Below, one piece after another: positions 6,709-50,305 of a stretch of 64,000 nt of DNA. Both the position numbers and the translations under genes were made by a program. The notes under the pieces were generated by a model. The model was not told where the DNA came from. It did no database searches and was given only the letters and a program-made list of their open reading frames with translations. Origin of the DNA: Bidens hawaiensis (lineage: Eukaryota > Streptophyta > Magnoliopsida > Asterales > Asteraceae); assembly GCA_021521415.1 (NCBI GenBank), contig JAIQDT010003767.1, forward strand, positions 62,001-126,000, read 5' to 3'. The stretch's first letter is position 1, and each line of letters starts with the position of its first letter.

Positions 6709-7510
6709 TGTCACACTCCAACCTAAGGCAGAATTGCCAGGGTATGAGTTGATTGCAAACAACTCACAAGGTACTATAATGCAATAATTTAATGTGACAA
6801 CATCTATTTATTCAAATTAAATATTCAAATAATTCCAAATAAAATAAATTACATAATAAAAAATAAAGCAACAAAATAAATAATTCAAATTTAACTAAGT
6901 CTTGATTTATTCTTGATAATATTTCTTCTAACATAGCAATCCGAATTCCTTCAACAATTCCTGATATCAATTCACACAATGACATGCATATGCGTATAAA
7001 ACATAAATAATTTTGTCAACACAAGGTTGAGTGAGTAAAACACCAGTTAATTTAAGATACAATATAATATATAAAAGAAAACCCAAATTGTTTCTTAATG
7101 ATACAATTAAGCCATAGCATTTAGACAAATCAAAGATAATAAAATATAGCCTAAACCGTTTCCATGCGAGTCGGGCATTTGTTACCATGAGTGAGTTGTC
7201 GGTGAAACCTTTGTCATGCGATTGGACTCCGGCCGCTAAGACAGTCGTATGATCATACTATTAAAATATGTTGAACCTCTGCGAATGCGTTCAAATAAGC
7301 ACATTTACAAGTAGCAAGTTAGGAACATAACTGATAACACACAAGGTTAACACTTGCTAATGTGGATACTAATAACAAGAAAATATTGTAAATACGCATA
7401 TGTCCCAAAAATGTTAAAAATAAGTAAAAAGTGAAGTGAAATACTCACCTTATCAAATACGCAAAGTGATAATGATTTGATAAGAAAAGGGGTAGATCAA
7501 GATCTTCGGC
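6709..7510 (-). mobile_element. Left half of an old gypsy solo LTR, split by the Tekay element
   Basis: The segment starts TGTCACACTCC, a usual gypsy LTR end, right after TCTTC (6704-6708). The other half, 19843-20495, ends GAGTTGTTACA followed by the same TCTTC (20496-20500). Together they form about 1.46 kb with TG..CA ends and a 5-bp target duplication, which is a solo LTR left by LTR-LTR recombination. The minus strand carries a donor-like GATAAGGTGAGT near 7445, so the LTR reads leftwards. Confidence 0.85.
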
Positions 7511-7879
7511 TGTAACACCCCGTAACCGCAGCGGAAACGTACACGGGATGCAACAGACACATCTGATATCAACAACATTGTTTATAAAGAAAACACCACT
7601 ACATTAATTTAAACGTATTACATTGTTCTGAGTTTCATAACCATCTAAGCGTTATCACATAAGTGTTACCGATAGTACATTAACATATTTAATGCAAAAT
7701 ATAGATCTCTAGACTTCCACAAAATAGCACACAGCATCGAACACATATCACTCATTCCAATTTGAGTGTACCTAGAAAGCATGTAAAGAAAACGGGTCAA
7801 CTACGAATAGTTGGTGAGTTTCACTAATTTAAATAAACCATGACAAATCATTATAAAAATCATAAATAAGCGATGTAAT

Positions 7880-8125
7880 TATACTGAGTTCACAAGTGAA
7901 AACTCTGTTAACCCCGAAACACATCAAATTACCCCTGGGGACACTGTTAACCCAGAAACATATCTAATAACCTCTGGGGACACTGTTAACCCAGAATCAT
8001 ATTTAATAACCTCTGGGGGCACTGTTAACCCAGAACATTTCCAATATCCTCTGTGGACACTGTCAACCCAGAAATACATTTAATAACCTCTGGGGACACT
8101 GTTAACCCAGAACACTGTTTCGGGC
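7880..8125. repeat. LTR minisatellite, CTGGGGACACTGTTAACCCAG units
   Basis: Five to six units of about 39 bp, each holding GGGGACACTGTTAACCCAGA with a variable AT-rich spacer. CTGGG and CCCAG make each unit weakly self-complementary. Two isolated units lie at about 8438-8495. Confidence 0.9.
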
Positions 8126-8310
8126 CTTACAATATTAGCAACTCAGTTAATTACCATCTTAATACATTACCGTACGATTTCCGTACAATAAACATTATGT
8201 AAGTACATTCGTTTCCATGCGATTAGCATGTACTTAAACACTTTAATAGAAACATGCTTTCCGCCCCGGGAAAATATTTAAAACAGTTCAGTAAAAAGGG
8301 GCTCGTGAAA

Positions 8311-8320
8311 ACTCACCTTC
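8311..8320 (-). promoter_or_regulatory. Splice-donor-like site in the 3' LTR copy
   Basis: The minus strand reads GAAGGTGAGTTTTC, a near-consensus plant 5' splice site (AAG/GTGAGT). The same site is in the 5' LTR at 17514-17523, where it would lie on the element transcript upstream of the minisatellite and PBS. Confidence 0.5.
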
Positions 8321-9995
8321 TTGTGAGCAAGATGTACTACGGTGCACGGCTACTGGTACAGATCTGTAATACGATCCCCAAATCGTTACTACACAATTTC
8401 TATCAATATAACTTAAATTCGTGTTAACCGGTACGTCTGGGGACACTGCTAACCCAGTACCGTACACGATCCGGGGACAATGTTAACCCCGAAATACTTT
8501 TCAGGACTTAGATTGTGATATCACCTAGAGTTCTTTAGTCAAAACTACCGTTAGTTTGTTTTCTCGTTTTGCGTGCCTAGCACGGTTATCCGTCTTTATG
8601 TTTACAAAAATAAGTTTGACCACACACGACACGAAAATAGTTATTATTGATATTTTCATTAAAGTGGTGAAATTAGAGCTCGGTTAGACACCCCGTTTGG
8701 CCGCGGGGCCCGTTTCCGTCTTTAATACACCGAGAACGGTTAAATCGGGTAAAATTACCCAAATCATCCGAATTATTTTCGGATGATTTATTTTTACTTG
8801 ATTAACTTAGTTTCATAAAAATCATCCACTTTTTAAGGTTTTCAAACACCAGTCAGCTCGCTTAGGCGAACTTCGCCGGTTTACTCGTTTTAAGCTTTAA
8901 AAGTTTGTTTTTAAGTTCCATTTAGCACAAATAAATATCCGTTTATTCTCGGACCCTGAAATTTTGTACAAACCATATTTTGACAGTAAGGAATTTTATA
9001 AATTTTTTTTTTCCAGAATTAATTTTTATATCTAAAATTTATTTAACCATTTTTAAACGTCATTTAAACACCAAATATGACGAAAATACCAAACGACCTT
9101 TGAAAAATCCCAAATTTTTCTGGGATGACCCCTGTCACCCACATAGTTCCCTGTAATTTTTCCAGAACCAAAAACTTATTTTTCATGCCATTTTTACAAA
9201 AACCGAGCTAGAAATCCCCAGAACTCGTTTTACCGAAAAGCCTACTTAGACTTCTCCAATGAACCTGAAATTTTGTGTGTTACTTTTATATGTTATAAAA
9301 AGCTTATCTTAAATTTTCCAGAATTTTTCATGATGTTTAGCTATTTTTCACCATTTTTGGCCAAAACCGAGCATTAAATTCACCAAATATTCATCCTTTA
9401 TCCAAAAATTACCAAAAATTCACAGATCCCATATTTTCATGTGTAGATCATCTCTGTGAAATTTCGTGACCCAACTCTAGGTCTATCACAATCTGTCCAA
9501 ATTATCTAAATCATACGAAAACCGAACTATCTTGTGTTTTCTAGCGTTAGATCGCAAAGATCTTGGTTTCTAGACTTTGCTAGCCACTAGATACAACACT
9601 TACAAGCACAACAACACCACACCAAGCAAGTTATACCCACAATCAAGCCATTTCTTTCATGGTTTCGATTAAAACATCAAAACAAAGATTTTGACCGTAA
9701 AAATTCGTTTTTGACTCTTTTAACTACTTTCTTGGACCAAGATCCTTTGTATAACTTGTATACATCACTTGATCCTCCAAGAATCGGTTTCATCTCGGGT
9801 TTTCGCCCATTTTTCATTTGAAACCTCATTTCCTTGTAAATGAACCAAGAAAAGAAGATAAACACGATCACAACTCGGTTTTTACCTTGTGTTCTTGCTT
9901 AAAAACTTGGGTTTTGGATGGATGTTGAAGAGTGTTGAGAGGATTTGGAGAGTAATATTGGAGAAAAAAGAAAAAGTGAATGTGTATGTGTGTAG

Positions 9996-10015
9996 CATGG
10001 ACCGACCGGTCCATG
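9996..10015. promoter_or_regulatory. Palindrome near the LTR promoter (3' LTR copy)
   Basis: CATGGACCG and CGGTCCATG face each other around a 2-base centre. In the other LTR (19198-19217) the centre is also symmetric, giving a perfect 20-bp palindrome. It lies just upstream (minus strand) of a CT/CA-rich stretch that looks like a transcription start region. Confidence 0.6.
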
Positions 10016-10634
10016 TTATGTTAGTGGGGGGGCCCACATCTCCAACCATAGCCACACATTCGGATTGTGTAATCCGGATAATGTTGTGGATAATCTGGTT
10101 CAGTTCGTTTTTCGGTTAAACGTTTAATTGCGCTCAAAACGAGGCCAAAACGGTCGTTTTTCGGCTTAAAAATGAAATTTATATAAAACTGATTTAAAAA
10201 CTTTAAAAACTTAAACCATGACGTTTATTGACTCAACACATCATATTGTCGGTAACTGTGCATCTTTTTCGGCTTGATCGATCGTCTCTTGCTTGGTTTG
10301 ATATTAAAGGTTTCGTTTAACGTACCGACGTACCATTAAATCGAAATCCTTTTTCTGTGCTATAATTCACTCATCCCGAAGATTTAATACTTCGTAAACC
10401 TTACTAAACATCATATATTTCGTATATAATGTAATCCCCGATTCGTTCGGGTTTCAATAACCGTTCATAGGTTAATCGTAATTCCAATACGACTATCTGT
10501 ATATTCGAGTATAATTCGTACGGTGAATCTTATATACTCATATAAACACATTATAATTCATATATTCAGTATTGAATAACACGTAAATAGTATATTCCGG
10601 CTAGGGTATACCTGAATTTGCCGGAATCGTTACA

Positions 10635-10646
10635 TTCTCCCCCCGT
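10635..10646 (-). other. Polypurine tract of the Tekay-type element
   Basis: The minus strand reads ACGGGGGGAGAA directly before the 3' LTR (which begins at 10634 in this orientation). This is where plus-strand DNA synthesis is primed. Confidence 0.85.
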
Positions 10647-10670
10647 TATAAAAATTTCGTCCTCGAAATT

Positions 10671-13600
10671 TTACGCATCAACTACTTCCTTTTGCGGAAA
10701 TAGGTGGGGGTATTTCTTCCGAAATTCGTCCTTTCGTTCCCACGTATATTCTGGACCTCGTTGCGAGTTCCATCTAACTTTGACCAACGAGATCTTATTG
10801 TGTCTAAGTTGCTTGATTTTCCCATCCACTATTTCTATGGGTTCCTCTACAATGTTGAGTTTATCACTTATTTGGACACCCTCTAAGGGTAACGCCGATG
10901 TCTCATTCGACAGACACCTTTTCAAGTTCGACACGTGAAACACATTGTGAACTGCACTCAGTTCATCAGGCAGTTCTAATCGGTATGCTACTGGACCGAT
11001 TTTTGCAGTAATGTCGAATGGTCCAATGTATCTAGGGGCTAACTTCCCCGCCTTTCCAAATCTGACTACTCCTTTCCAAGGTGATACTTTCAAATACACT
11101 TTATCACCTTTCTCAAATGATAACGGTTTTCTACGGGTATCGGCATAACTCTTCTGCCGATCCCGTGCGGCCTTCAGATTGTTCTTAATTTCAAGAATTT
11201 TGCTGGTCGTTTCCTGGACCAGATCTGATCTAATAACCTGTGTGTCGCCCACTTCAGTCCAGCAGAGTGGTGATCGGCACTTTCGTCCATACAATGCTTC
11301 ATACGGTGCTGCTTTTATACTGCTATGGTAACTGTTATTATAGGAAAATTCAACGAGCGGGAGATGTTGATTCCAATTTCCCTTAAAATCCAGTACGCAT
11401 GCACGAAGCAAATCCTCCAGGGTTTGAATGGTCCTCTCAGACTGACCGTCGGTCTGAGGGTGGTAGGCTGTGCTTAAATTAATACGCGTTCCCAGCGCTT
11501 CTTGCACAGCTTGCCAAAGCTTGGAGGTGAAATGGCTATCCCGATCAGAGATGATTGAGATGGGTATCCCATGACGAGACACAATTTCATTTATATAAAT
11601 CTGCGCAAGTCTCTCAGTGTTATAATTATTTCTAATCGGGATAAAATGTGCCGATTTGGTTAATCGATCCACGACTACCCAAATTGCATCATGTCCTCGG
11701 GACGTCTTGGGGAGATGTGTCACAAAATCCATCGTGATCAGCTCCCAATTCCATTCGGGAATTTCCCGTTGTTGTAATATTCCCGAAGGTTTCTGGTGCT
11801 CCGCCTTAACCCTCGCACACGTCGTACACTTGCCGACGTATGTGGCTATATCCTTTTTCATACCCGGCCACCAGTAGAACTCCTTCACATCCTTGTACAT
11901 CTTATCCGAACCCGGATGTATGGAATATTTCGATTTATGCGCTTCGTTCATGATCAATTCACGAAGATCATGGAGGGTCGGGATCCAAATCCGATTTTTG
12001 AAGTAGAGAATTTCGTCCTTGCGCTGTTCGAAGTTCTTCTCGTTACCGAAAAGTCCCTCTTTTTCCAATTGTTCCTCTTCCAACACCTCGCGTTGAGCGA
12101 CTCGAATCAAATCCGAAAGGTTCGACTGGACTATCATCCCCAGCGCTCGCACTCGCAATGGCTTAACCCGATCCTTCCTACTCAAGGCATCGGCTACGAC
12201 GTTAGCCTTGCCGGGGTGATAACGGATGTCACAGTAATAGTCGCTTAATAATTCGACCCATCTTCGTTGTCTCATATTCAGTTCTTTCTGATCGAATATG
12301 TGTTGCAAACTTTTATGATCGGTGAAGATGGTGCACTTTGTACCGTAGAGATAATGTCTCCAGATTTTAATTCCGAAGATAACTGCTCCCAGTTCTAAGT
12401 CATGAGTAGTGTAATTTTTCTCGTGTACTTTTAACTGTCGGGAAGCATAGGCTATGACTTTATTATTTTGCATCAACACGCATCCTAACCCTTTCCGGGA
12501 TGCGTCACAATACACGACAAAACCATCGTCTCCGTCGGGGAGACTTAAGATCGGCGCTTGGCACAATCTTTGTTTTAGCGTTTGAAACGCCGTTTCCTGC
12601 TCTTCACTCCATTCATACTTTCGATCTTTTTGGGTCAGAAGGGTTAAAGGTTGGGCGATGCTGGAAAAGTTCTCTATAAATCGACGATAATATCCAGCTA
12701 AGCCTAAAAATTGGCGGATTTCCTTTGGCGATTTAGGCGCTTGCCAATTCTTAACTGCTTCAACCTTACTTGGATCAACGTGTATTCCTTGATGGTTTAT
12801 AACGTGACCAAGGAATTGCACTTCTTGTAACCAGAAGTTACACTTGGAGAATTTTGCAAACAACTTCTCCTGATTTAGAAGCTCTAAAATTAATCTCAAG
12901 TGTTGCTCATGCTCTACTTTACTCTTTGAGTATATCAAAATATCGTCAATAAACACGATGACGAATTTATCGAGGTAGGGTTTACAGACTCGATTCATGA
13001 GATCCATGAATACTGCTGGCGCATTTGTTAGCCCGAAAGGCATAACTAAGAACTCGTAATGGCCGTAGCGAGTCCGGAATGCGGTTTTTGGGATATCCTC
13101 CTCCTGGATTCTAACCTGATGGTATCCCGATCTAAGATCTATTTTTGAGAAGTAGCTCACACCTTGTAGCTGGTCGAACAGATCATCGATTCGGGGGAGA
13201 GGATACCTATTTTTGATTGTCAACTTGTTCAGCTCCCTGTAATCAATGCACATTCTAAGGCTTCCGTCCTTCTTTTTCACGAATTGTACCGGTGCACCCC
13301 ACGGGGAATAACTAGGACGTATAAATCCTTTATCCAACAATTCTTGCAACTGGTTGGATAACTCTTGCATCTCGGATGGTGCAAGTCGGTAGGGCGCCTT
13401 AGCAACAGGGCCAGCTTGAGGTAATAAGTCGATTCTGAATTCGACCTGTCGGGTTGGCGGTAATCCAGGAAGTTCCTCTGGGAAAACTTGTGGAAATTCG
13501 CGTACCACGGGAATATCGTCCACCCGTTTTTCCTCAGAATCAGTGGCCGTCAGGCTCGCTAGATACGCCACACATCCCTGACGTATATATTTTAACACCT

Positions 13601-15377
13601 TGAGGTGGGATATAAATGGTATCATGGTGCCGGATTTTTCTCCTTGCACTAATACCTCCTCGTCATCCGACACCCGGATCTTGACGATTTTCTTTTCACA
13701 GTTTATTTCTACTTTGTTACGTGCTAACCAATCCATTCCCACTATTACGTTAAAACTACCCAATTCTACCGGTAACAAGTCAATCGGAAAGGATTGTTCG
13801 TTCAGAATAAAAGGGCAATTCCGAACTATCTGATTAACTAACATGGTTTTACCGTTAGCGACTTCTACGGTGTAAGGTTCTATAGTTTCACCAATTGGAA
13901 GGTTTGCTATCGACAGGAATCTAACGGAGACAAAACTTCTATCGGCGCCTGTATCAAATAATACAGAAGCGTAATGATCAGAGACGAGGAATGTACCTGT
14001 CACTACGCTGGGGTCCTGGCGTGCCTCGTTCGCCCCCATCACGAATGCTCGGCCTCGCGCCGGATTGGACGGCGATGCCTGACCCGCGGGTTGCCGCCCA
14101 TTTCCTCCCTGGTTCAGCTTCGGACAGTTTTTCTTGAAGTGATCTGTGCTACCGCATTCAAAGCAAGCACGACTGGTGGTCATCACTTGATTTCCTTGTG
14201 GGTTTTGTTGTCGGGCTGATTGGGTCCTAAATGGCTGCGCACGGATAGGTTGCGGTTGCCGGTTCAAGTTGTTCAGGTTTGTCCTACAGCTCGGTGCGTA
14301 GTGCCCAATCCTGCCGCACCGGTGGCACACCACCTCTTTGCACATGCCACCATGGTGGTAACCGCATTTCCCACACCTAGGAAACGTTCCCTTCTGCGGT
14401 TCTTGCCTTCCGCCCGATCTAGTCATGGCGTAGTTCTGGGCAGTGGGTCTAGCACGTTTACCTTGCTGCTTTTCCTGGGTCTTATGGTCATGTGTACCCC
14501 GCTTTCCTCCAGCGGACTCTCCCGCCACCTTCAGTGACCCGCTCCTTACGAAATCGTACGTTACGATACCCGCTTGCGTCACCGCACCCTCATATGTCTG
14601 GTGTCCCCCAGAATTGAGTATACTCCTTACAACTGGAGTTAGCCCCCAAATATAACGCTCCACCCTCTTCGACTCTGGGGTGACCAACCATGGTACCAAT
14701 CGCGATAGCTCATTAAACTGGTTCGTATAACCCAAATGGTCTGCCCCCTGCATCTCCAGGTTCCACAATTCATTTTCTAATTTTTGCAATTCGTTTTTCG
14801 GGCAGAAATGTTCCAGTACAAGAGCCTTGAGCTCCGTCCAGGTCATGCGGTTTGTCGCCGCCTGGCCCCGGGTCTGCACTATCGTGTTCCACCATGTCAA
14901 GGCATGGTCCGTGAATGTGCAGGCAGCATACTTAAAAACACAATCCTCGGGGCAGTTGCTGATATTCACCACGGATTCTATTTTCTCGATTCATTTAACT
15001 AATCCATTTGGTCCTTCAGACCCGCTAAACTCTAGAGGTTTGCACAACATAAAGTCCTTGATCGAACATCCCCTGGTTGCACGAATCGGTTCAGTACGGT
15101 TCGTCTCTACCGTAGGTACAGGGCCATTACTGTCTGTAACGACCACCCTAGGCGGTGCGTCATTACTCGGAATCGAGTTATCGTTTTGTGGAGGATTAGC
15201 ATTTTGTTCCCCGTTATTATTGGTGGTCGTTTGATTGCTCGGAGGGGTTGGATTGGTCGAATTGTTAATACTGGCGGCGATGCGCGATACTATATCCGGT
15301 ATCGCCGCCTCCAACTGGCGAGCAATCAGACGGCTCACGTCCACTTCCGACAATTGGGCTGAACGTTTTGGTGCCAT
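10671..15377 (-). pseudogene. Gag-Pol polyprotein with chromodomain, one in-frame TGA
   Basis: A single frame of 1,567 codons starts at ATG 15377 (MAPKRSAQLSEVD) and ends at TAA 10671. Its only break is TGA at 14991-14993, where related Gags have Trp (GLVKxIEKIE). Numbered from 14972: Gag to about 140; three Cys-rich knuckles ([40 protein letters not shown]) at 200-283; protease DTGADRS at 340; RT 525-700 with FIDD at 674-677; RNase H with YCDAS at 821; integrase HHCC (H1012, H1019, C1049, C1052) and D1082, D1143, E1179 with the classic 35-residue gap; GPY module near 1315-1335; chromodomain 1372-1415 ([16 protein letters not shown]). It makes virus-like particles, copies the RNA and inserts the DNA. 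One G-to-A change may have inactivated it; readthrough is possible but unproven. Confidence 0.95.
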
Positions 15378-15378
15378 T

Positions 15379-15402
15379 CTACACAACATCAAGAAAATAT
15401 AT
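15379..15402 (-). promoter_or_regulatory. Splice-acceptor-like site just before gag ATG
   Basis: The minus strand reads TATTTTCTTGATGTTGTGTAG and then A-ATG of gag. A T-rich tract followed by TAG one base before the start codon fits a 3' splice site. Confidence 0.4.
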
Positions 15403-15751
15403 ATAATCAATACAAGTTCCAATCATAAAACACAACAAACATTCCATTCATTAATAAACGTTAGTACATATTTCACAAGCATCCGTTCATATTACTTTCC
15501 TCTCACTATTACATTAGTTAAGTTTTCATACGTAGGGCCTATGTCGGCATCATCTCGACATAACCCGCAACGGGTCAGTGCTTGAATGATACCCAAAAGT
15601 ATCTATACTGATATTCCCCAAAAGAGACCCCCCCTAAGGGCCAGTGGTTGTATTATAACTAAACAAGATTCACTCCATGTTAGCATCACCACTAACTGCT
15701 TACACAGAGTATCAAAAAAAACGGTCCCTGTCTATTCCCATCCCAACACAA
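15403..15751. other. Spacer between the extra ORF and gag
   Basis: About 350 bp of leader between the stop of the extra ORF (15752) and the gag acceptor-like site. I see no conserved frame on the minus strand and no clear structure. Confidence 0.5.
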
Positions 15752-16351
15752 CTAAACACGGTGGTAAACCAACCCCACCAATATCGCCACCAACACCACC
15801 AACACAGCCATCATAACCCGGACCCGCATCTCCATCCGGCCGAGCATCCATTGGGAGTATGAGCACTCCCTCTTCAGCTGGGCAATCGCATACTGATGGT
15901 CCAGTATGCAATCCCCCAAGTACATCCTCCTCTGGACTCCCACCGTCAGGGTGGCGGAGTGCTCATTCACCTGTTCGGTGAGCACTCGGAGCCAGGCCGC
16001 CGCGTCCCGTTCCTGTCTAGGAAGACCCCACACAGGTGGAGTCGCAGGCTCGGGCTGAGAGCGGGAGGACTCGCCCCTGCGGGTAGCAGGTCTGGGTGGG
16101 GGCGAGGTAGGTCGGACATATGGGATACTGATCCGCGCCGTGAGGCGGGGTCCGAATCCGGGGGGTGCAGGGGCGGCCTGTGGTGCGGGTGGGGTCGGGG
16201 ATCTGGCAATCCTAGCTGGGGAGGACTGGCCGGAACTCCTAAGGCTAGCCTCGCTAGGCTCTGTGCTAGATGCTACGAGTGGGCTCCCAGAGTCTCCGGA
16301 GCTGACCTCCTCCGGGTCCTCCTCAATCGACAAACTGGGAGTTCTTGACAT
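15752..16351 (-). CDS. Extra ORF upstream of gag: putative tail-anchored membrane protein
   Basis: I do not recognise this 199-residue protein. It starts MSRTPSLSIEEDPEE at ATG 16351 (an upstream in-frame Met at 16378 adds nine residues) and ends at TAG 15752. Residues 1-50 are acidic and Ser-rich; about 50-110 are Pro/Arg-rich (SPTPPAPQAAPAPP, RPTSPPPRPATRRGE); about 115-175 look helical (RDAAAWLRVLTEQVNEHSA); the last 20 residues are a hydrophobic run (MMAVLVVLVAILVGLVY) followed by HRV. That layout predicts a C-terminal tail anchor facing the cytosol. It lies between PBS and gag on the same strand, is intact, and is visibly GC-richer than its AT-rich surroundings. An acceptor-like site lies six bases before the ATG. 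It may be an accessory protein, or a captured host fragment. Confidence 0.65.
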   Translation of the reverse strand: MSRTPSLSIEEDPEEVSSGDSGSPLVASSTEPSEASLRSSGQSSPARIARSPTPPAPQAAPAPPGFGPRLTARISIPYVRPTSPPPRPATRRGESSRSQPEPATPPVWGLPRQERDAAAWLRVLTEQVNEHSATLTVGVQRRMYLGDCILDHQYAIAQLKRECSYSQWMLGRMEMRVRVMMAVLVVLVAILVGLVYHRV

Positions 16352-16356
16352 TTTAC

Positions 16357-16385
16357 CTGCACACAAGTTAACAAACATATAGTTC
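16357..16385 (-). promoter_or_regulatory. Splice-acceptor-like site just before the extra ORF
   Basis: The minus strand reads TATGTTTGTTAACTTGTGTG then CAG/GTAAA and the ATG. A T-rich tract with GCAG/G matches plant 3' splice sites and also leaves GTAAA after the junction. With the LTR donor at 17514-17523 it would remove the PBS and leader. Confidence 0.5.
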
Positions 16386-16691
16386 TTTCCATAGTGTAAA
16401 TCATAATCAAATTAATATACACTTACTTATACAACTTGACCACATAACAATATTATCACATATTTGCACGTATGTTGCCAATTTTACCTATTAAAGTCCC
16501 CCGTGACTTTCCCTGAATTCCCTCGTGCAGACAAGTCTGTTATTATGTTCCGGACCATAATAACCCGCTTGTCCATCCAAGTTCATCCCGATCTCGTCAC
16601 AATATATTATTAGTTGATATTCAGATCCTATAATACTTGAGCTACTGGTTATATTTTAGGTATCTTTTAAAGACATCCTAATTCTTTATAA
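16386..16691. other. Untranslated leader of the Tekay-type element
   Basis: About 300 bp between PBS and the extra ORF. No long frame on the coding strand. It probably contains packaging signals, which I cannot identify by eye. Confidence 0.5.
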
Positions 16692-16709
16692 CCAATGGCT
16701 CTGATACCA
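16692..16709 (-). other. Primer-binding site for initiator Met tRNA
   Basis: The minus strand reads TGGTATCAGAGCCATTGG, complementary to the 3' end of plant tRNA-iMet, five bases inside the 5' LTR. This is the minus-strand primer site. Confidence 0.92.
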
Positions 16710-17096
16710 AGTTCTGTAACACCCTGTAACCGCAGCGGAAACGTACACGGGATGCAACAGACACATCTGATATCAACAGCATTGTTTATAAAGAAAACAC
16801 TACTACATTAATTTAAACGTATTACATTGTTCTGAGTTTCATAACCATCTAAGCGTTATCACATAAGTGTTACCGATAGTACATTAACATATTTAATGCA
16901 AAATATAGATCTCTAGACTTCCACAAAATAGCACACAGCATCGAACACATATCACTCATTCCAATTTGAGTGTACCTAGAAAACATGTAAAGAAAACGGG
17001 TCAACTACGAATAGTTGGTGAGTTTCACTAATTTAAATAAACCATGACAAATCATTATAAAATCATAAATAAGCGATGTAATTATACTGAGTTCAC

Positions 17097-17320
17097 AAGT
17101 GAAAACTCTGTTAACCCCGAAACACATCAAATTACCCCTGGGGACACTGTTAACCCAGAAACATATCTAATAACCTCTGGGGACACTGTTAACCCAGAAT
17201 CATATTTAATAACCTCTAGGGGCACTGTTAACCCAGAACATTTCCAATATCCTCTGGGGACACTGTTAACCCAGAAATACATTTAATAACCTCTGGGGAC
17301 ACTGTTAACCCAGAACACTG
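17097..17320. repeat. LTR minisatellite, second copy
   Basis: Same unit as at 7880-8125, with GGGGACACTGTTAACCCAGA repeated about every 39 bp. Because 39 is a multiple of three it opens a repetitive plus-strand frame (17044-17286), which is a by-product and not a gene. Confidence 0.9.
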
Positions 17321-17513
17321 TTTCGGGCCTTACAATATTAGCAACTCAGTTAATTACCATCTTAATACATTACCGTACGATTTCCGTACAATAAACATTA
17401 TATAAGTACATTCGTTTCCATGCGATTAGCATGTACTTAAACACTTTGATAGAAACATGCTTTCCGCCCCGGGAAAATATTTAAAACAGTTCAGTAAAAA
17501 GGGGCTCGTGAAA

Positions 17514-17523
17514 ACTCACCTTC
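17514..17523 (-). promoter_or_regulatory. Splice-donor-like site in the 5' LTR
   Basis: GAAGGTGAGTTTTC on the minus strand, downstream of the predicted start region and upstream of the PBS. It is placed to pair with the acceptor-like sites before the extra ORF (16357) and gag (15379). Confidence 0.5.
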
Positions 17524-19197
17524 TTGTGAGCAAGATGTACTACGGTGCACGGCTACTAGTACAGATCTGTAATACGATCCCCAAATCGTTACTACACAAT
17601 TTCTATCAATATAACTTAAATTCGTGTTAACCGGTACGTCTGGGGACACTGCTAACCCAGTACCGTACACGATCCGGGGACAATGTTAACCTCGAAATAC
17701 TTTTCAGGACTTAGATTGTGATATCACCTAGAGTTCTTTAGTCAAAACTACCGTTAGTTTGTTTTCTCGTTTTGCGTGCCTAGCACGGTTATCCGTCTTT
17801 ATGTTTACAAAAATAAGTTTGACCACACACGACCCGAAAATAGTTATTATTGATATTTTCAATAAAGTGGTGAAATTAGAGCTCGGTTAGACACCCCGTT
17901 TGGCCGCGGGGCCCGTTTCCGTCTTTAATACACCGAAAACGGTTAAATCGGGTAAAATTACTCAAATCATCCGAATTATTTTCGGATGATTTATTTTTAC
18001 TTGATTAACTTAGTTTCATAAAAATCATCCATTTTTAAGGTTTTCAAACACCAGTCAGCTCGCTTAGGCGAACTTCGCCGGTTTACTCGTTTTAAGCTTT
18101 AAAAGTTTGTTTTTAAGTTCCATTTAGCACAAATAAATATCCGTTTAGTCTCGGACCATGAAATTTTGTACAAACCATATTTTGACAGTAAGGAATTTTA
18201 TAAATTTTTTTTTTCCAGAATTAATTTTTATATCTAAAATTTATTTAACCATTTTTAAACGTCATTTAAACACCAAATATGACGAAAATACCAAACGACC
18301 TTCAAAAAATCCCAAATTTTTCTGGGATGACCCCTGTCACCCACATAGTTCCCTGTAATTTTTCCAGAACCAAAAACTTTTTTTTCATGCCATTTTTACC
18401 AAAACCGAGCTAGAAATCCCTAGAACTCGTTTTACCAAAAAGCCTACTTAGACTTCTCCAATGAACCTGAAATTTTGTGTGTGACTTTTATATGTTATAA
18501 AAAGCTTATCTTAAATTTTCCAGAATTTTTCATGATGTTTAGCTATTTTTCACCATTTTTGGCCAAAACCGAGCATTAAATTCACCAAATATTCATCCTT
18601 TATCCAAAAATTACCAAAAATTCACAGATCTCATATTTTCATGTGTAGATCATCTCTGTGAAATTTCGTGACCCAACTCTAGGTCTATCACAATCTGTCC
18701 AAATTATCTAAATCATACGAAAACCGAACTATCTTGTGTTTTCTAGCGTTAGATCGCAAAGATCTTGGTTTCTAGCCTTTGCTAGCCACTAGATACAACA
18801 CTTAAAAGCACAACAACACCACACCAAGCAAGTTATACCCACAATCAAGCCATTTCTTTCATGGTTTCGATTAAAACATCAAAACAAAGATTTTGACCGT
18901 AAAAATTTGTTTTTGACTCTTTTAACTACTTTCTTGGACCAAGATCCTTTGTATAACTTGTATACATCACTTGATCCTCCAAGAATCGGTTTCATCTCGG
19001 GTTTTCGCCCATTTTTCATTTGAAACCTCATTTCCTTGTAAATGAACCAAGAAAAGAAGATAAACACGATCACAACTCGGTTTTTACCTTGTGTTCTTGC
19101 TTAAAAACTTGGGTTTTGGATGGATGTTGAAGAGTGTTGAGAGGATTTGGAGAGTAATATTGGAGAAAAAAGAAAAAGTGAATGTGTATGTGTGTAG

Positions 19198-19217
19198 CAT
19201 GGACCGATCGGTCCATG
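19198..19217. promoter_or_regulatory. Perfect 20-bp palindrome near the 5' LTR promoter
   Basis: CATGGACCGA is followed by its exact reverse complement. It lies between a GGGCCCCCCC-type (minus strand) run and a CA-rich start region. It could bind a dimeric regulator; this is inference. Confidence 0.6.
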
Positions 19218-19837
19218 TTATGTTAGTGGGGGGGCCCACATCTCCAACCATAGCCACACATTCGGATTGTGTAATCCGGATAATGTTGTGGATAATCTGG
19301 TTTAGTTCGTTTTTCGGTTAAACGTTTAATTCCGCTCAAAACGAGGCCAAAACGGTCGTTTTTTCGGCTTAAAAATGAAATTTATATAAAACTGATTTAA
19401 AAACTTTAAAAACTTAAACCATGACGTTTATTGACTCAACACATCATATTGTCGGTAATTGTGCATCTTTTTCGGCTTGATCGATCGTCTCTTGCTTGGT
19501 TTGATATTAAAGGTTTCGTTTAACGTACCGACGTACCATTAAATCGAAATCCTTTTTCTGTGCTATAATTCACTCATCCCGAAGATTTAATACTTCGTAA
19601 ACCTTACTAAACATCATATATATCGTATATAATGTAATCCCCGATTCGTTCGGGTTTCAATAACCGTTCATAGGTTAATCGTAATTCCAATACAACTATC
19701 TGTATATTCGAGTATAATTCGTATGGTGAATCTTATATACTCGTATAAACACATTATAATTCATATATTCAGTATTGAATAACACGTAAATAGTATATTC
19801 CGGCTAGGGTATACCTGAATTTGCCGGAATCGTTACA

Positions 19838-20495
19838 TCGGCAAATACCGATGAGAAATCCTTGCACGAAGTTAAATTGATGGTTAATTGGTCCGATTAT
19901 TCCGACGGCAAAAGAGAACAATTTACGAGGAATCTTAATGAAATTAAGGTGAGGGCTATGTGTCGCTAGCTTTCCTAGATGGTGTACCCTCATTTAATTG
20001 GATTGTTACGATGTTTATATAACAATTTACGAAATTGGTATATGAAGGTTTGGTATAATAATAATAATATCGTATGAAGTTTGATCTTGTTTTCCTAATT
20101 GTAGCACCGGTGACGCCGAAATAGGTAAGAAGAATAAGACTTTTCATCCAATTCCATGTTTACGTCGATGATTGCAGTCCAAGAATAGCAATTTTGTAAA
20201 CGAATGCGTATTTGGATGTGGTATATGGATACAGGTTAACGGGTTTAGAAGGATTATAATATATCTTTTTAATTTATTTGTTGTTTAGTCCCTGAACTAT
20301 TAAGGTGGAAACATAATAGGTTTAAAGTGTAGTTTAGGCTAAAAAACGTAAATGTTACAAAGTTATTTTATATATATTTAATAAATAATAAAAATAATAA
20401 TAACTCTAATAATGCGATATTTTCTTGGTAATATTTCCCGAACCTAAAAACGGGCCGGGTAAAAAATATTAAGCGGAAAAATCCGAGTTGTTACA
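19838..20495 (-). mobile_element. Right half of the old gypsy solo LTR
   Basis: Begins with the second copy of TCGGC and ends GAGTTGTTACA, then TCTTC (20496-20500), matching the flank at 6704-6708. See the left half at 6709-7510. Confidence 0.85.
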
Positions 20496-23320: not shown

Positions 23321-25141
23321 TCACTGATATTTCCTTGCTTCGTCCTTCAAAGCAGGAATATAGAATATCTTCATTTCATTCAACACTTGCAGATCAGCTT
23401 TCGATAAGTTAACAAGATGCATCGGATCATACACCCTCAGCACTTCGTGTTCGTCTTCGTCTTCCATCACGGCTTCAGCAGTCTGGCAATCAACGTACCA
23501 CCATTTTAGATTCTTCAACACATCTTGAGGCATAGTCTTCATTGGAACCTCCTTGATGCATCGGATCGGTTTGTACTTCATCACCATCCATGGCTTGCCA
23601 TCTGCTCTCATTCCCCTTTCTGTATCCTCCACGAGCTTTCCCTTCTATGGCTTTAATAATTCAAACTTCTTCTCTTTTATGCTTTCTTTCCACACGATCT
23701 TCCCAATCACTCTTGCCATGTTGTCGTCACTTCTATTTATCAGGCCCAACCTGGCCAAATCCTTCACCTCACATTCCGGCAACGTATTGAGAGATCTCAG
23801 GGTTCTTTTGAAGTATTGAATACCATCATAACGCTTCACCACAAACAACTTTATCTGTTCATCATATATCCAACAGATAATTCCCTTCTTCGACTCAGCA
23901 TAGCCTTTGATGTTATAACTCTTCTTGAACATGGCTGGAACAGCAGGCTTCTTGGTCTTAATAAACCAATGAGCACAGCCTTCCTTCCACCTAGGCTGCT
24001 CCTCCCACTCAGTCTCATCCATCTCAGTACCCATGTCGGCTTTCTCAACATCTGGGATCTCGTGTTCAACGTCTTCTTCTACTATCTCCCCCTCTTCTAT
24101 CCCATCTTCAATCACAATCTGTGCGCCAATCTTCTCAATCTCCTCACACGGCAGCACATCATCATCAAACACATCATCATCTAGCATATCATCATCTAAC
24201 TCTCTCAACGCATCAATCACATCATCTTCATCATCAACCATCACCACCTCATCACCACCAACTGCACCTGCAGACTCCCCCTGAGCTGTGGAAGTCCCAA
24301 GAGCTTGAGTAGTTCTTGGCAACTCACCACCTGCACCTTTCGGTGCATTGGGATCATCGTCTCTATCGTTTCTCTTCTTAGTCCTTAACTCGTCGCCTCT
24401 ACAGCCTGTCTCCCCCTGAGATGCCAAGAACGCCTTCATAGCATCTATAATCCTCCCATGCTCAACCAGGAGGGATGACTGTAGTTGATTTTCTGCTACA
24501 AGGCGTTGAATAGCCTGGGTCTGGATAAAGTTGATCCTTGATTGCTCTGCCACGACCCGCTCAAGTGCAGCTATTCTCTCCGAGTCTGAGATGGTTGCAT
24601 CGAAATCAAATCTCATATTAGATGTATCTGGAGTATACTCAGTAGGGATTTCAAATGCAACTGGGACTTCAGAAGCAGTTGTGGACGTAACCGCAGGTGG
24701 TATCGTGACCGACAACCCTGCAGTTGCGACGACCGTCGACTCTACAAATTGTGCCACCACCTCTGAAGGAGTAAGCGTTGGAGGTGGTAACGACACAATC
24801 TCCGGAGTCGTCGTCTGTAGTGTAGTGGATGGGATGCCAACAGCTGATGTAGCCACCACAGGAACATCTGCAGCGCTTGTAACCTGTACAGAAGTAGGAA
24901 CGATTGACATACCTGACAGTGCGGATGGAGCAAAACGTATAACACGTGAAGTCTCTCCAGCTCCCATACCAGCACCTGTCCTTTCACGTCTCGAACGTCT
25001 GATCAACTTGTGTATGTCCTCCTCTTCTTCCTTTGACTCACTATCATCCACCGTCCTCTTTCTCTTCCCTAACGTCCTCTCTCTAGTCACCAACATCCTT
25101 CTCGCCTCATCCATAACGTCGTTAAGATCGGAGTCAGCCAC
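23321..25141 (-). pseudogene. Extra 3' ORF of SIRE-like copy 1 (N-terminus deleted, one TAG)
   Basis: A frame of 607 codons (first ATG 25114) is broken only by TAG at 23645-23647, where copy 2 has Gln (LLKTQKGK). It falls into a Ser/Thr/Val-rich linker with KRKRT and EEE patches, a coiled-coil-like piece (RIAALERVVAEQSRINFIQ), an acidic stretch (VDDEDDVIDALRELDDDML), and a conserved C-terminal domain from EEQPRWKEGC to DEARKYQ (about 220 residues, e.g. KSYNIKGYAESKKGIICW, LKNLKWWYVDC, VYDPMHLVNL). Copy 2 (47078-50020) has a further N-terminal domain missing here. SIRE elements are known for an additional ORF at this place, often called env-like; I see no signal peptide or membrane segment. 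Function unknown. Confidence 0.75.
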
Positions 25142-27026: not shown

Positions 27027-30000
27027 TTACTCGGGATTGATCATCCCATTCAACTCAATAAGGTTTTGAAATCTCGTTTTGTCAAACGCTTTAGTGTAAA
27101 GATCAGCGAAATTATCAAGCGTATCCACCTTTTCAAGTACAATCAGTTTCTTCTCAGCACAATCCCGTATAAAATGATGACGTATGTCAATATGTTTAGT
27201 TTTACTATGCTTCACGGGATTGTTAGTTACTGAGATAGCAGCTGTGTTATCAATGCAAATAGGTGTAAGTAAGAAATTCAGACCATAGTCGCGCAATTGT
27301 TGTTGAATCCAAAGAACCTGGGAGCAGCAGTTGGATGCTGCCATGTATTCTGCTTCACAGGTTGAAATTGCGACCGAAGTCTGTTTATTGCATTGCCACG
27401 ACACCAATCTGCCACCAAGAAACTGACATCCTCCTGTTGTTGACTTCCGACTCTGATTGCACCCACCATAATCAGAGTCTGTGTAGGCGACTAGCTCCAA
27501 GTCTCCTCCTCTCGGGTACCACAACCCCAGCTTCGGTTTGCCCTTGAGATACCGCAAGATCCTCTTCACACCTTTCATGTGAGATTCCTTTGGGTTTGCC
27601 TGAAAACGAGCACAAAGACAAACAGCAAACATTATATCAGGCCTTGAAGCAGTTAAGTACATTAAAGAACCTATTATAGCCCGATACTGAGTTGGGTCCA
27701 CATCTGCATCACCGTCTGACTCAGCACCCAATTTGTGATTGACACAGATAGGAGTGTCGAATGGAGTGCTGTCCTCCATCTTGAAGCGTTTGAGCACATC
27801 ATGGACATACTTGGTCTGATGAATGAATATCCCATCCTTCTTCTGATCAACCTGCAACCCTAAAAAGAAAGTTAGTTCACCCATAGCACTCATTTCAAAC
27901 CTTTTCTTCATGACGTCCTCAAAATCTTGACACATGGAGACTTTTGATGCAGCAAAAATAATGTCATCCACGTAGACTTGCACTAGCAGGAAGTCGCTTC
28001 CTTGTCTCTTCACAAACAGCGTGCTATCTATCTGACCTCTTTCAAACCCATTTTCAAGCAAGTAGTCTGATAAAGTTGAATACCAGGCACGAGGTGCCTG
28101 ATGTAGTCCATACAATGCCTTGCTCAACTTGTACAAGTGATCAGGAAAGTCTGGGTCAGGAAAACCCGGAGGTTGCTCAACATACACTACCTCATCAACT
28201 TTCCCATTCAGAAACGCACTCTTCACATCCAACTGAAATACCTTCATCTTCTTATAAGCAGCGAACGCCAAAAACAATCTAATGGCTTCCAACCTTGCGA
28301 CATGAGCGAACACTTCATTATAATCAATCCCCTCTTGTTGATTAAATCCTTTCACAACTAGCCTCGCCTTGTTTCTGATGATAATCCCTTTCTCATCTCT
28401 CTTGCACTTAAAAACCTATTTTGTGCCAATCGCATGCACATGCTTTGGTTTTTCAACCAAATCCCAAACTTCCATTTTCTTGAACTGAGCCAACTCTTCT
28501 TGCATGGCTTCGACCCACGAGCTGTCCTTTAAAGCCATTTGATAATTTTTCGGTTCAATCTGGCTGATAAAGCAGGTGTACAAGCATTCGTTGATTATTC
28601 CTGTCTCCTTAATGCTTGTGTAAACACAGGTGTGCTCATCCAAGCTACGTCTTGTTTGTACACCGGAGGACACATCACCAATCACATTCTCCAAAGGGTG
28701 ATCTTTATGAATTCTCGTGGTCGGAACAGAACCGACATGCTAATTGTCTTCCAAGTTAGAAGAGAGCTCGTCAATGGTTGTTTCATGCTGAGAGTGAAAA
28801 GGATTGATAAATTCTTCTTCAGTTGAGGCAGCAGGGGAATCGATAGTATTTGATGAGGAAGGTTGACATTTATCAATCAGCTGTCTTTGCAATAGATTTT
28901 CTTCCTCATCAAGGATCATCTTCGTAGCAACTCTTTCTTCTTCTTCAGAGATATCTAAATCCGGTATGTTAAAAGACTTAAAAAGTTTAACATAGTCGAA
29001 AAACTCCGCAGGTCCGTTGCTTAGTTTTGGCGGTTGATAACTTGTGATATCTGTGTTACACACCACCTCAATCTTGCTTGTCGATGTATTAAAGACACGT
29101 CTGTTGGGAGTCCCAACAACATAACCGACTAAGATTCCTTCATCGGCTACTTCACCAAATTTAGAATTTGTCTTCAAAATCGAACAAGGGGACCCGAATG
29201 GTTCTAGACCACTCAAGTTGGGCTTTCTTCCATGCATAAGCTCATAACATGTCTTACCCAGTCTTTTAACAGTTAAGACTCTATTCAGAACATAACAGGC
29301 TGTAGCAACAGCTTCAGCCCAAAACACCACAGGAAGCTTTGAATCAGCCAGCATAGTTCTGGCTCCTTCAATTAACGTTCGGTTCTTCCTTTCAGCCACT
29401 CCATTCTGTTGCGGTGTATAAGGAGCGCTGTATTGGTGTTCAATCCCTCTCTGAAGACAGAAGATCTCCATCTCAAAATTCTTGAACTCTGTTCCATTGT
29501 CACTTCTGATGAACTTAACCCTTTTATCCATAACGTTCTCAACTTTGGTAATCAAATTCTTCACCATCTGAGCCGTTTCATCTTTTGATTTCAGGAAATA
29601 TACCCACGAGTATCGTGAGTAGTCATCAGTGATCACCAAGCAGTATGAAGTACCTCCTAGACTTCTTGCATATAAAGGACCGAAGAGATCCATGTGAAGC
29701 AATTCTAGAGTACTGGCAATTGAATTTACTTTCTTGGTGAGATGGGATTTCTTGTGCTGCTTTCCCTTCTTGCATGCTATACATTTATCTTCAAAATTGA
29801 AATTTTTCTAGGGAACGCCCAGCACAAGCCCATTCTTGACAATGTGGTTCATCTTCTGAAGATGAATGTGTCCCATTCTCCTATGCCACAATTCGGACTC
29901 TGTTTCACTCGCTTTTGTCAAAAGGCATGACTCTGCCGTGGCCATTTCAGTTGATCTCATATCCATAATGTACGTATTCCTATCACGAGGTGACTTCATC

Positions 30001-42112: not shown

Positions 42113-42535
42113 ATTTTGCTCGTGATTGTGTGGTTCGGGATTATCACACGGGTGTCAAGATCGTTCCGTTAGACCATTCGCGGAACGAGTTTACGTTGAA
42201 ATACCTTGTTTTTGTCAATTACTCCTATTCACTCATCAAATATACCTTCTAATCACCCTCTCGTCCCTCGAAATCGACCTAACTGTTCCTGCATAACTCC
42301 TTGTTCGTCTGGCGAAGTTGCCGTCACCCATACTAGGGTTTCAGTGAACATATAGGGTTTCTGCAAAGTTGTTACTAGCGAAGTTATATACTTAGCGAAG
42401 TTCTGAAGTTAGCGAACTTGTGTGGAAGGCGAAGTTGTCATTTAGCGAAGTTTTACAGGCGAAGTTAAAGTAACTTCGCTGCTCACTTGCACACAGAATC
42501 TTATTTTTAAGTTCTAAGTCTTGTTTCATTCAAGT
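42113..42535. repeat. Leader of SIRE-like copy 2
   Basis: GCGAAGTT/AACTTCGC words at 42310-42485, as in copy 1. No coding frame. Confidence 0.7.
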
Positions 42536-45186
42536 ATGACTTCGATAAACATCACTGAACTGGTAAAGATGGAGGTTGAAGCAGGTTCAGCAACTAAAGC
42601 TCCAAAATTGCTTAAAGGTACTGATTTCGTTGCATGGAAAGATAGATTTGAACAATATGCGAAGTATCAAGACACAAAGATTTGGGTCTGCATTCAAGAC
42701 GGATACATTCCACCAACGTCCATGTTTGAAGGTCGTGAACAGATTAAGAAGTATAGTAAGATGGAAGATGATGAAAAGAAAATGTATGAGGCAGAGTGTA
42801 AAGCACATGCAGCTATAACAATGGCACTTCCACAAGAGATTCTTCATACCTTTAAAAAATACAAAACTGCTAGAGAACTATGGGAAGCACTAGAGAATAG
42901 ATATGAAGGAAAAGTGAGGATACGTACCTCCAAGACAAAGCTGCTAAAAACTCAATTCTCCGTATTCAAGTATTTGAAAAACGAATCACTTGATGACATC
43001 ATCACACGATATTATCATCTGATGACCGAGCTAAATAACTACTCCATTGAATACAAGGAAGAAGAGATAGTAGAAAAGCTTCTTGATGCTCTCCCACCAA
43101 AATGGGAGATGTACACTGTTCTGATGAGAGAAGATAAGGACTTTGATAAGATTGATTTGGAGACGGTGGTAAATAAGTTACAGAATTTTGAACTAAATAT
43201 GGCTCGAAAGGAGACACCGACTGATCAGGTTCAGGATCTGGGAATGTATGGTGCTAAAGTCACTTCAAACTCACGTTCAAAAACATAATCCACTGCCTAC
43301 TACTCAAAAGGGGAACCAAACTCCACTCCAGATGGTCATGTGATTCTCAATATGGATGGTGACGTATGTTTCGTGGCAGGAGGTAGTAGTTCCTCAAAAC
43401 CTCAAACCACAACTGGTAATTTCTCAACCAATGCTTCGAGCAAGAACTACTCACAGATGCCTATGAGTGTGAAATCAACTGAACAACATTTTTCTTTTTA
43501 TGCCTCCTTCATTGCATCTTATGAGAATTACATCAAAGGAAAAATAGTTGACCCTGCAACGTTGGATGAAGACTATGATCAGATCGACGCTAATGATCTG
43601 GAAGAAATGGATCTGCAGTGGCAGATGGCTATGATTGTAAGAAGGGTGAAAATATTTATGAAGAAAACTGGTAGAAAGTTCGTTAGAGAAAGACCGGGGT
43701 TTGATAAGTCCAAAGTTCGTTGTTATAACTGTCAACAGAATGGTCACTTTGCGAAAGAGTGTACAAATGAGAGAGTCGAACGAAGCCAAAACAGGCCTGC
43801 TCAACAGAATGGGAATGGAAGTGAAAATAAGGCTATGGTATCTCAACAAAACGGTGGATACAACTGGAATATACAAGTTGAGGAGGTGTTCGAACAGGCA
43901 AATCTGGCAAACATCGAAACTGGAGGGAATGACAAAGAGACTGGAGAAGATCAAGCATACATGGCAGAAGTGAACGATCAACTCTCCGAGGTATGTTCTG
44001 AATCTCATTGTGAACAATGTGAAAAACTGTCTGATCAATTGAAAACATTAACTGATCAGTTTGTTAGTTTGGACACTCAATTTAAAAATTTAAAAGAAGA
44101 ACATCACTATTCTAAAACTAAAGAAAACAGTTACTCCGTAAAAATAAAAGCTAGTGAAAAGGACATCAGAAGTCTTAAAGCCACTCTAGCTGAAAAAATA
44201 CAAGTGATTGATCTTAGTTATGAAGTGTTAGAAGAAAAGACCAAACTAATTGCTGAAAAAGATAAACAGATAGTTGATTACCAGGTAAAAGTGATGGAAC
44301 TGAACAGAAAAATTGAACAATTTAGAAATTCTTCTGCGATGTTAGATCACAACATAAGTGTTCAACATTCCCCGGTTATCAAAGGGGGAATTGGATTCTT
44401 TGAAGTTCCACCACCATATAACAATAATTATACATATAATCCTAGTAATCAGCAATCTGCGAATGTTGAAATTAGTCAGACAGTTCCAATAAAAGTTTTT
44501 GCTAAAGAAACTGAAGTTAATGAGAGTGACACTAGTAAGACAAGTTCTAATGTCACAAGTTCTGTCCGTAGTTTTGTCTCGTCAAACTCGGACAAGTCTT
44601 CCGAATTGGGTGAGATAAAAGAAGAGGTTGTGTTACTAAAACGAGGGGAGGACTATAAGTTTGATGGAAAGAAATCTTCCCTAAATCCGTTCGTCCCACC
44701 ATATGTGAGACAGACGGATAGTAACGCAACCTCGACATCTGCAACAACTTTTGATACGAAAGTTCAAAACAGCCAAAATAGTTCGAACAGAAGTTGTTTT
44801 AGATGCAACAGGATAGGACACCTTATCGCTGATTGTCCTCTGAAACAAAGAAAATCTAGAAATGTGAGGCCTATTAAAACTGAGAGTAAAACGAATACTA
44901 ACTATGATGCTGGTAAGAATGTGAAAACACCAAATTTCAATCATTGGACTAATCCAAGATTTCATAGAATCAGTCTCGTTTTTTCCCGGTAAATTACCAA
45001 ACCAACAATTATAATTCAGTTAATTCACGAAGATTTGGATGGCCTAATAGCCAGTCATCTAGAAATTTTCCTTTCAGAACTTATAGAAACTCTCCTCAAA
45101 CTGACTTTGGGCAACCAAGGTACTGGATGCCGGATAACAGGTTTAATCAACCCAAGATCAGAAGGTCTTGGGTCCCCAGATTTTAA
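42536..45186 (+). pseudogene. Gag of SIRE-like copy 2
   Basis: ATG 42536 opens MTSINITELVKM, and the frame follows copy 1 Gag throughout. TAA at 43286-43288 replaces a Glu (SKTES in copy 1). The frame shifts near 44970 before the C-terminal SWVPRF and TAA at 45184-45186. Domains: copia Gag domain to about residue 235; [14 protein letters not shown]; coiled coil with [14 protein letters not shown]; a piece with [16 protein letters not shown]; second knuckle [14 protein letters not shown]. The protein that could be made today ends after about 250 residues and lacks both knuckles. Confidence 0.88.
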
Positions 45187-50035: not shown

Positions 50036-50305
50036 GAGTAGCCCCCTATCTCATCCAACAAAGCATAGTAACCTTCAATCCCAGCCAACCATTTCTCATC
50101 CAACATTGAGCCCTGTGAGGTACAACAAGCGTACAACAAGCGTACAACAAGAAAACAGGTACATCCACCTTCACCACCAAGTCAACTACCACCAATTATC
50201 AACACTTCACCACCAATTATCAACACTTCGCCACCAATTGATAGTAGTTAAGATGAGTTAGATGAAGACTATGATGATTCTGATGATAAGTCTTACAATA
50301 TAAAT

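Follow-up and report, generated by a model that had tools for sequence, protein, structure and literature searches.

A probable accessory gene for a candidate tail-anchored protein between the primer binding site and gag of a Tekay-like Ty3/gypsy retrotransposon

Positions 15752 to 16351 of the window (the whole stretch of 64,000 nucleotides that was analyzed) raise the question of whether an open reading frame (ORF) of 199 codons, lying on the sense strand of a retrotransposon between its primer binding site (PBS) and gag, is a gene and, if so, what its product might do. A sequence-only reading had drawn attention to this frame, and we found it where that reading had placed it, on the minus strand of the window. 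The element that carries it has the following parts outside the region of the ORF.

7506..7510, no strand: left copy of the 5-bp target site duplication TCGGC, from the flanking letters
7511..19837, minus strand: Tekay-like Ty3/gypsy long terminal repeat (LTR) retrotransposon of ~12.3 kb, delimited by its LTR pair, TG/CA ends, target site duplication, and pol domains
7511..10634, minus strand: 3' LTR, 3124 bp
10635..10645, minus strand: polypurine tract adjoining the 3' LTR, read from the letters
10671..14972, minus strand: remaining gag-pol with capsid, reverse transcriptase, integrase, SH3-like tail, and a weak chromodomain match, from Pfam searches on pieces
14991..15377, minus strand: N-terminal part of gag, closed by an in-frame stop in the window copy
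16698..16709, minus strand: PBS TGGTATCAGAGC, read from the letters
16715..19837, minus strand: 5' LTR, 3123 bp
19838..19842, no strand: right copy of the target site duplication TCGGC, from the flanking letters

The pol domains follow the Ty3/gypsy order, with reverse transcriptase (RVT_1 in 12693 to 13295) ahead of integrase (H2C2/rve in 11373 to 11975) in the minus-strand frame. An SH3_Tf2-1 match (2.9e-23) precedes a match to the chromodomain profile PF00385 near the C terminus of pol, the latter having an E value of 0.048 and 14 bits against a cutoff of 25.1 bits. We take the PBS to be of the tRNA-Met type and the element to belong to the Tekay (Del) lineage, a label that we assign provisionally from its anatomy and its PBS. 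The family of the element, a probable Tekay-type chromovirus, is very abundant; for other Tekay families in the source genome, a search with the PF03732 profile gave 86612 candidates, of which 150 were scored as matches. In each LTR a 39-bp unit is repeated 5.4 times in tandem (17108 to 17315 and 7905 to 8112). As a separate observation, matches on contigs G000:C5561, C234, C5794, and C3070 recur at steps of 8.8 to 9.8 kb within one contig; such steps fit tandem arrays of LTR elements with common LTRs, the LTR-to-LTR distance of the window element being 9.2 kb.

The segment between the PBS and gag is laid out as follows.

16352..16714, minus strand: AT-rich leader (34% GC) with nine ATGs ahead of the ORF start
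16357..16358, minus strand: AG of a putative acceptor-like site, TTGTGTGCAG, directly ahead of the ORF ATG
15752..16351, minus strand: accessory ORF at the ORF0/5'aORF position, 199 codons plus TAG, under purifying selection
15767..15814, minus strand: nonpolar run MMAVLVVLVAILVGLV, residues 180 to 195, followed by YHRV
15378..15751, minus strand: AT-rich spacer from the ORF to gag
15379..15380, minus strand: AG of a putative acceptor-like site, TTGTGTAG, directly ahead of the gag ATG

The ORF is GC rich (62%) amid AT-rich flanks, the spacer having 37.5% (15384 to 15751), which agrees with the composition described earlier. Its length as such is moderately unusual and is weak evidence for a gene: among 1,000 dinucleotide shuffles of the ORF stretch, 13 contained at least 199 codons in any of the six frames, and 3 of 1,000 shuffles of the whole leader attained the observed 219. 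Its intactness is likewise no evidence for function, since the element inserted only ~0.45 million years ago, as estimated from the 98.75% identity of its two LTRs (Kimura two-parameter distance, 0.0116) at the LTR dating rate of 1.3e-8 per site and year; 0.11 nonsense changes are expected since then, and the chance of there being none is ~0.90. Thus, the contrast drawn in the sequence-only reading between an intact ORF and a stopped gag is correct on both sides but not telling; other copies without the early gag stop of the window copy also exist. On this evidence the ORF could be a chance opening in a GC-rich leader segment that acts as an RNA structure or packaging signal, given that shuffled sequence sometimes reaches its length and that intactness is expected of a young element. 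Because length was weak evidence and intactness uninformative, we examined the relatives of the ORF.

A search of the source genome (3.47 Gb) with the ORF protein gave 10802 first-look candidates and one with gag gave 15670; 150 matches were scored in each search, and match counts are accordingly lower bounds. The 150 scored ORF-protein matches, a sample chosen by the protein itself, are 94 to 100% identical to it, and 21 of them contain a stop. From these we drew 90 ORF-picked copies, namely, the top 30 and 60 from the other 120. A second sample was taken by gag: 20 copies were chosen by hand at intervals over approximately the first 90 matches, and their upstream sequence was fetched before any ORF was seen. 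These 20 do not overlap with the 150 scored ORF-protein matches, so that this sample leans away from window-like copies and its share of intact ORFs may be low. The ORF is nevertheless present from end to end in 19 of the 20 gag-picked copies (one of them, L095, being completed by its neighbor L116) and is intact in 11, ten inside the fetched stretch plus L095; in 8 a stop or frameshift interrupts it, and the remaining copy, L108, has only the 3' half. In L108 (G000:C190), as judged by eye against L116, an apparent LTR end runs into the middle of the ORF, so that the fetched stretch lacks the leader along with the first half of the ORF.

The copies fall into three types by nucleotide identity of the ORF to the window copy: type A (95.8 to 98.2%), type B (88 to 90%), and type C (76 to 80%). 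Intact types A and B do not differ in length, eight type B copies matching all 600 nucleotides without a gap, and the type C ORF is 15 nucleotides longer than that of type A, in frame. The start ATG is present in 89 and the stop codon in all 90 of the ORF-picked copies. An upstream in-frame ATG at 16378 would give the window copy a protein of 208 residues; we rejected this start, because the ATG is out of frame in the type B and C copies that were read, which leaves 16351 as the start common to the types.

We then compared the ratio of nonsynonymous to synonymous change (dN/dS) frame by frame between the window copy and the 11 ungapped full-length gag-picked copies (three of type A and eight of type B), with the other 9 of the 20, which are gapped, partial, or of type C, set aside. 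In the reported frame, dN/dS is 0.19 to 0.26 for the eight B copies and 0.28 to 0.48 for the three A copies. In the remaining two sense frames it is 1.0 to 2.5 for the B copies and 0.84 to 2.5 for all 11. Between types A and B, we counted 39.5 substitutions over 152.8 synonymous sites and 25.5 over 444.2 nonsynonymous sites (Fisher P = 1.5e-10 for substituted versus unsubstituted sites). The low dN/dS of the reported frame relative to the other sense frames indicates that this frame is coding, and on the strength of these comparisons between copies the ORF is very probably a real protein-coding gene. Comparisons with type C, one pair each, give 0.43 (A-C) and 0.54 (B-C). Two antisense candidates were considered and rejected. 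An open antisense frame at 15896 to 16348 (r0) has a dN/dS of 0.95 to 1.3 in A-B pairs. A second antisense frame (r1) also has a low ratio, 0.35 to 0.45 for the B copies and 0.26 to 0.32 for the three A copies, slightly under that of the reported frame for A and above it for B; the third positions of r1 coincide with those of the reported frame, which accounts for the low values, and r1 has three stops in the window copy.

These results make the chance-frame reading extremely improbable, and we rejected it: in addition to the per-frame ratios, the length differences between types are in frame, the start and stop are common to the types, and a search of 15300 to 16800 against Rfam at an E value of 0.1 returned no match that would speak for an RNA signal. 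The sequence-only reading had itself named a lack of relatives, frequent stops, and a dN/dS near 1 as the marks of a chance frame; judged by these marks the ORF is not refuted, though 8 of the 20 gag-picked copies are broken. Its claim of a true accessory gene, coding for a protein with a retained hydrophobic C terminus, is thus upheld, by the A-B ratios and by the nonpolar character of all tail changes described below.

The constraint between types A and B is about that of the N-terminal part of gag, for which the A-B ratio is 0.23 (17 changes), and type C is under looser constraint, since in the elements behind the type C values the N-terminal part of gag has ratios of 0.09 to 0.30 wherever amino acids differ. 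Among the 90 ORF-picked copies, nonsynonymous and synonymous columns number 111:60 for singletons and 45:46 for variants in at least two copies (P = 0.018; eight stop-making columns set aside). The nonsynonymous excess among singletons is decay after insertion, and the ratio in gag falls likewise from singletons to shared variants, more strongly than that in the ORF. A further explanation is that the ORF is a captured fragment of a host gene kept as cargo. Its GC content, far above that of the rest of the element, and the lack of any domain match above the cutoff would suit such an origin; nonetheless, selection acts on the ORF inside the element, which leaves cargo unlikely. Furthermore, the occurrence of three types with synonymous distances of 0.32 to 0.49 at the same place implies that the ORF is not a recent arrival.

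The types are not tied to the elements in which they reside. The L095/L116 copy is 98.6% identical to the window copy in the leader and 97.2% in the N-terminal part of gag but just 78.5% in the ORF; with L104, in contrast, it has 98.2% identity in the ORF and 95.9% in gag. Conversely, the N-terminal gag part of L016 is 99.0% identical to that of the type B copy L103/L111, whereas in the ORF of L016 60 of the 65 sites that distinguish A from B are A-like. Mosaics are found within the ORF as well, L098 having an A-like start joined to a C-like rest and L109 mixing A- and B-like sites. Which copies are most alike is thus turned around from one segment to another, and a higher mutation rate cannot by itself account for this. 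Recombination between element RNAs is established for LTR elements and explains the pattern, in which ORF types have been exchanged among backbones.

The predicted protein has three parts of contrasting composition. Residues 1 to 50 are Ser rich with a net charge of -4, and residues 51 to 112 include 19 prolines with a net charge of +6, in line with the acidic N terminus and Pro-rich middle first read from the translation; residues 113 to 175 have no proline, and proline makes up 12.1% of the whole window protein. The N terminus, MSRTP in types A and B and MSRSR in type C, is without the glycine at position 2 that N-myristoylation needs. AlphaFold2, run on the single sequence, predicted one helix over residues 112 to 198 (mean pLDDT, 64.7; pTM, 0.26), which is confident only toward its end, where the block pLDDT over residues 171 to 199 is 91 to 98. 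The best 19-residue Kyte-Doolittle window (2.94) lies at residues 177 to 195, with windows above 1.6 beginning between residues 172 and 181; the best values by type are 2.94 (A), 2.94 (B), and 2.34 (C). The protein therefore has a single hydrophobic span near its C terminus (177 to 195 of 199), as in tail-anchored proteins, and all compared types end in a nonpolar run that stops four residues short of the C terminus.

Within residues 180 to 195, no polar replacement occurs in L103 (type B), in L117 (type C), or in the 90 ORF-picked copies. Counting glycine as nonpolar, we found three changes between A and B (L103) and seven between A and C (L117), one of them in common, and six distinct changes among the 90 copies, all nonpolar. 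For 15 of 15 tail changes to be nonpolar has a probability of ~0.003, a crude calculation by hand that takes a neutral chance of 0.68 for each and assumes independence. The tail dN/dS, based on few sites, is 0.8 to 1.1; the nonpolar character is kept while the sequence varies between types. The segment LVYHRV is identical in the six compared sequences, with the final V replaced by A in 2 of the 10 copies printed whole. Taken together, the position, hydrophobicity, and retained character of the run make it quite likely that it serves as a true membrane anchor.

Database searches shed little light on the origin of the protein. In Pfam the sole match was to GbpA_2 (E value, 0.058), under the cutoff, and PDB yielded no relatives. 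A protein database gave no matches for the ORF (E value, 0.01) or for the six-sequence alignment (E value, 0.1); as the gag control was also unmatched, this silence is uninformative. Of 68 pattern matches in IMG/VR, none was confirmed.

Published work on extra ORFs does not bear out the premise of the sequence-only reading that chromodomain elements have only leader at this place, since ORF0 or 5'aORFs have been described there in Retrosat2, RIRE3, RIRE8, and sunflower Tekay elements (PMC3485330, PMC11728184). ORFs 5' of gag are reported from the grass Tekay/Del elements Retrosat2, RIRE3, RIRE8, and FRetro3 (PMC3485330). Like the window element (12.3 kb), Retrosat2 and FRetro3 exceed 12 kb, and these grass elements share with it both an ORF 5' of gag-pol and LTRs of ~3 kb or more (PMC3485330). 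The amino acid evolution of the grass ORF0 is described as faster than that of gag-pol, and ORF0 was not found outside grasses in that study (PMC3485330). In the text of the same paper, the word "transmembrane" occurs 0 times and the modeled folds are read as enzymes, in contrast to the membrane-tailed product of the window ORF (PMC3485330). In sunflower, Tekay group 2 (element 13-2), likewise of a eudicot, has a 5'aORF at the same place, which is present in 500 of 523 copies (PMC11728184). Its product has 15.9% proline, is mostly disordered, and has a C-terminal helix, much as the window protein with its 12.1% proline and C-terminal helix, but it differs in having 402 residues and a C-terminal nuclear localization signal and in being predicted to be nuclear (PMC11728184). 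The sole membrane helix reported in section 2.5 of that paper is in the Athila ORF(-), and the sunflower and grass 5' ORF proteins are stated to lack mutual similarity (PMC11728184). Env-like aORFs of plant elements such as Athila and SIRE also supply an extra protein, for which a membrane span is sometimes predicted, but they are located downstream of pol, ahead of the 3' LTR, and not 5' of gag (PMC7264820, PMC6317226). A large survey of 80 plant species set a minimum of 250 codons for the extra ORFs that it counted, and a gene of 199 codons would escape it (PMC6317226).

The ORF described here is a sense-strand ORF between the PBS and gag that is kept across family members, and it looks like a form of the Tekay ORF0/5'aORF that bears a membrane tail, likened to these by place and makeup. 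Searches of the open-license PMC literature turned up, as far as they went, no membrane-tailed 5' ORF from a Tekay element of plants, which does not prove absence. The claim that a membrane-anchored accessory protein would be new holds in part: 5' extra ORFs of grass and sunflower Tekay elements are already published, and with the published Tekay 5' ORF proteins predicted to be nuclear, it is the membrane tail that looks new. The function of extra ORFs in plant retrotransposons is mostly unknown, and this gene offers a concrete feature, the predicted C-terminal membrane anchor, by which the vague question of what 5' extra ORFs do becomes one for simple localization and interaction tests.

One might ask whether the gene is instead a plant counterpart of sORF2 of the Drosophila MDG1 group, that is, a membrane protein that would move capsids between cells via plasmodesmata or gametophyte junctions and not by fusion, plant cell walls making membrane fusion between cells unlikely. 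The sORF2 protein (e.g., of element 412), which is encoded on the full-length transcript, stains at the plasma membrane with Gag and has been tied by its authors to capsid transfer into the oocyte (PMC11952523). Like the window ORF, it is a sense ORF between the leader and gag of an Env-less LTR element and has one membrane span, which for the window protein is our prediction (PMC11952523). The layouts differ. In the FAST-like sORF2 the span is central, preceded by an ectodomain at the N terminus (~30 residues across the sORF2-like proteins) and followed by a cytosolic tail that carries a basic patch (PMC11952523). The window span, by contrast, occupies residues 180 to 195 of 199 at the extreme C terminus. 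The sORF2-like set ranges from 63 to 107 residues against the 199 of the window protein, and an N-myristoylation motif, a search criterion in that study, is precluded in the latter by its lack of Gly 2 (PMC11952523). We consider such a counterpart quite unlikely and, because the layout and myristoylation features of sORF2 are missing, group the window gene with the Tekay ORF0/5'aORF as a membrane-tailed form. It remains a plant case to place beside the insect sORF2.

How the ORF would be expressed is suggested by its surroundings. The leader has the lowest nucleotide diversity of five segments in the 90 ORF-picked copies, and its nine ATGs would hinder scanning if splicing were absent; in the B and C copies that were read, the ATG nearest the ORF start opens a short or overlapping frame. 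Using approximate splice-site scoring tables, we noted candidate donor-like sites in the leader and LTR in addition to the two putative acceptors. The claim that the ORF has an acceptor-like site of its own stands as to its presence, with the AG retained in 88 of the 90 copies, but the site is no more conserved than its surroundings. The AG ahead of gag is present in 87 of 90 copies, and the diversity there is 0.009 to 0.02 versus 0.075 to 0.08 just upstream. This arrangement suggests that the ORF and gag may be expressed from separate spliced RNAs. The spacer is gapped in 74 of the 90 copies and the ORF in none, the copies having been picked on the ORF. One part of the spacer (15541 to 15690) has a diversity of 0.007 to 0.03, near the leader level, with 0.075 to 0.08 in the next 90 bases, and is a possible RNA element.

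The explanation that we regard as likely overall is an accessory gene for a tail-anchored protein in a Tekay-type family. The ORF would be a working gene at the ORF0/5'aORF position, translated from an RNA from which the upstream ATGs have been spliced out, with gag translated from another RNA. Its product of ~200 residues would have a tail-anchor architecture, in which a flexible part, acidic and rich in proline, is followed by a helical stalk and then by a single hydrophobic helix at the C terminus. The tail may insert into an endomembrane (endoplasmic reticulum or nuclear envelope) with the N-terminal part facing the cytosol, where the membrane-held protein might bind Gag, particles, or element RNA. 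That docking of Gag or RNA at endomembranes is its main role is a tentative proposal, drawn from the architecture of the predicted protein. A different role, to which we give a somewhat lower chance, is to suppress or modulate RNA silencing by the host, or nuclear import, with the tail used for oligomerization or nuclear-envelope docking and the types changing as host and element compete. When B or C copies are compared with the window copy, the ORF has diverged more than the leader or the N-terminal part of gag, and the swapping of types between backbones also fits such a contest; on the basis of a weak fold match, silencing modulation has been suggested for the 5'aORFs of grass Tekay elements (PMC11728184). 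Against it are an overall dN/dS below 1 and the lack of Pfam domains above the cutoff. More speculative, and improbable in its entirety, is a version of the accessory-gene explanation in which some chromoviruses carry a swappable tail-anchored infectivity-type factor, arisen independently of sORF2, that docks Gag particles for assembly or cell-to-cell (e.g., soma-to-germline) transfer and whose types are recombined between copackaged RNAs as hosts adapt.

Other frames in the window deserve brief mention. A frame of 196 residues at 50306 to 50896 (plus strand) had no Pfam match at an E value of 0.01; it resembles, tentatively, the N-terminal region of a transposase of the MULE type. Two long frames, at 23645 to 25141 (minus strand) and 47894 to 50109 (plus strand), appear by eye to be similar in sequence, and searches with 23648 to 25141 and 49159 to 50106 gave no Pfam matches. 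Upstream of the first, on the same strand, is a copia-type pol (RVT_2 at 27030 to 28355), and upstream of the second is a similar gag frame (42521 to 44992). Both are probably the 3' extra ORF of a copia family, presumably of the SIRE-like lineage.
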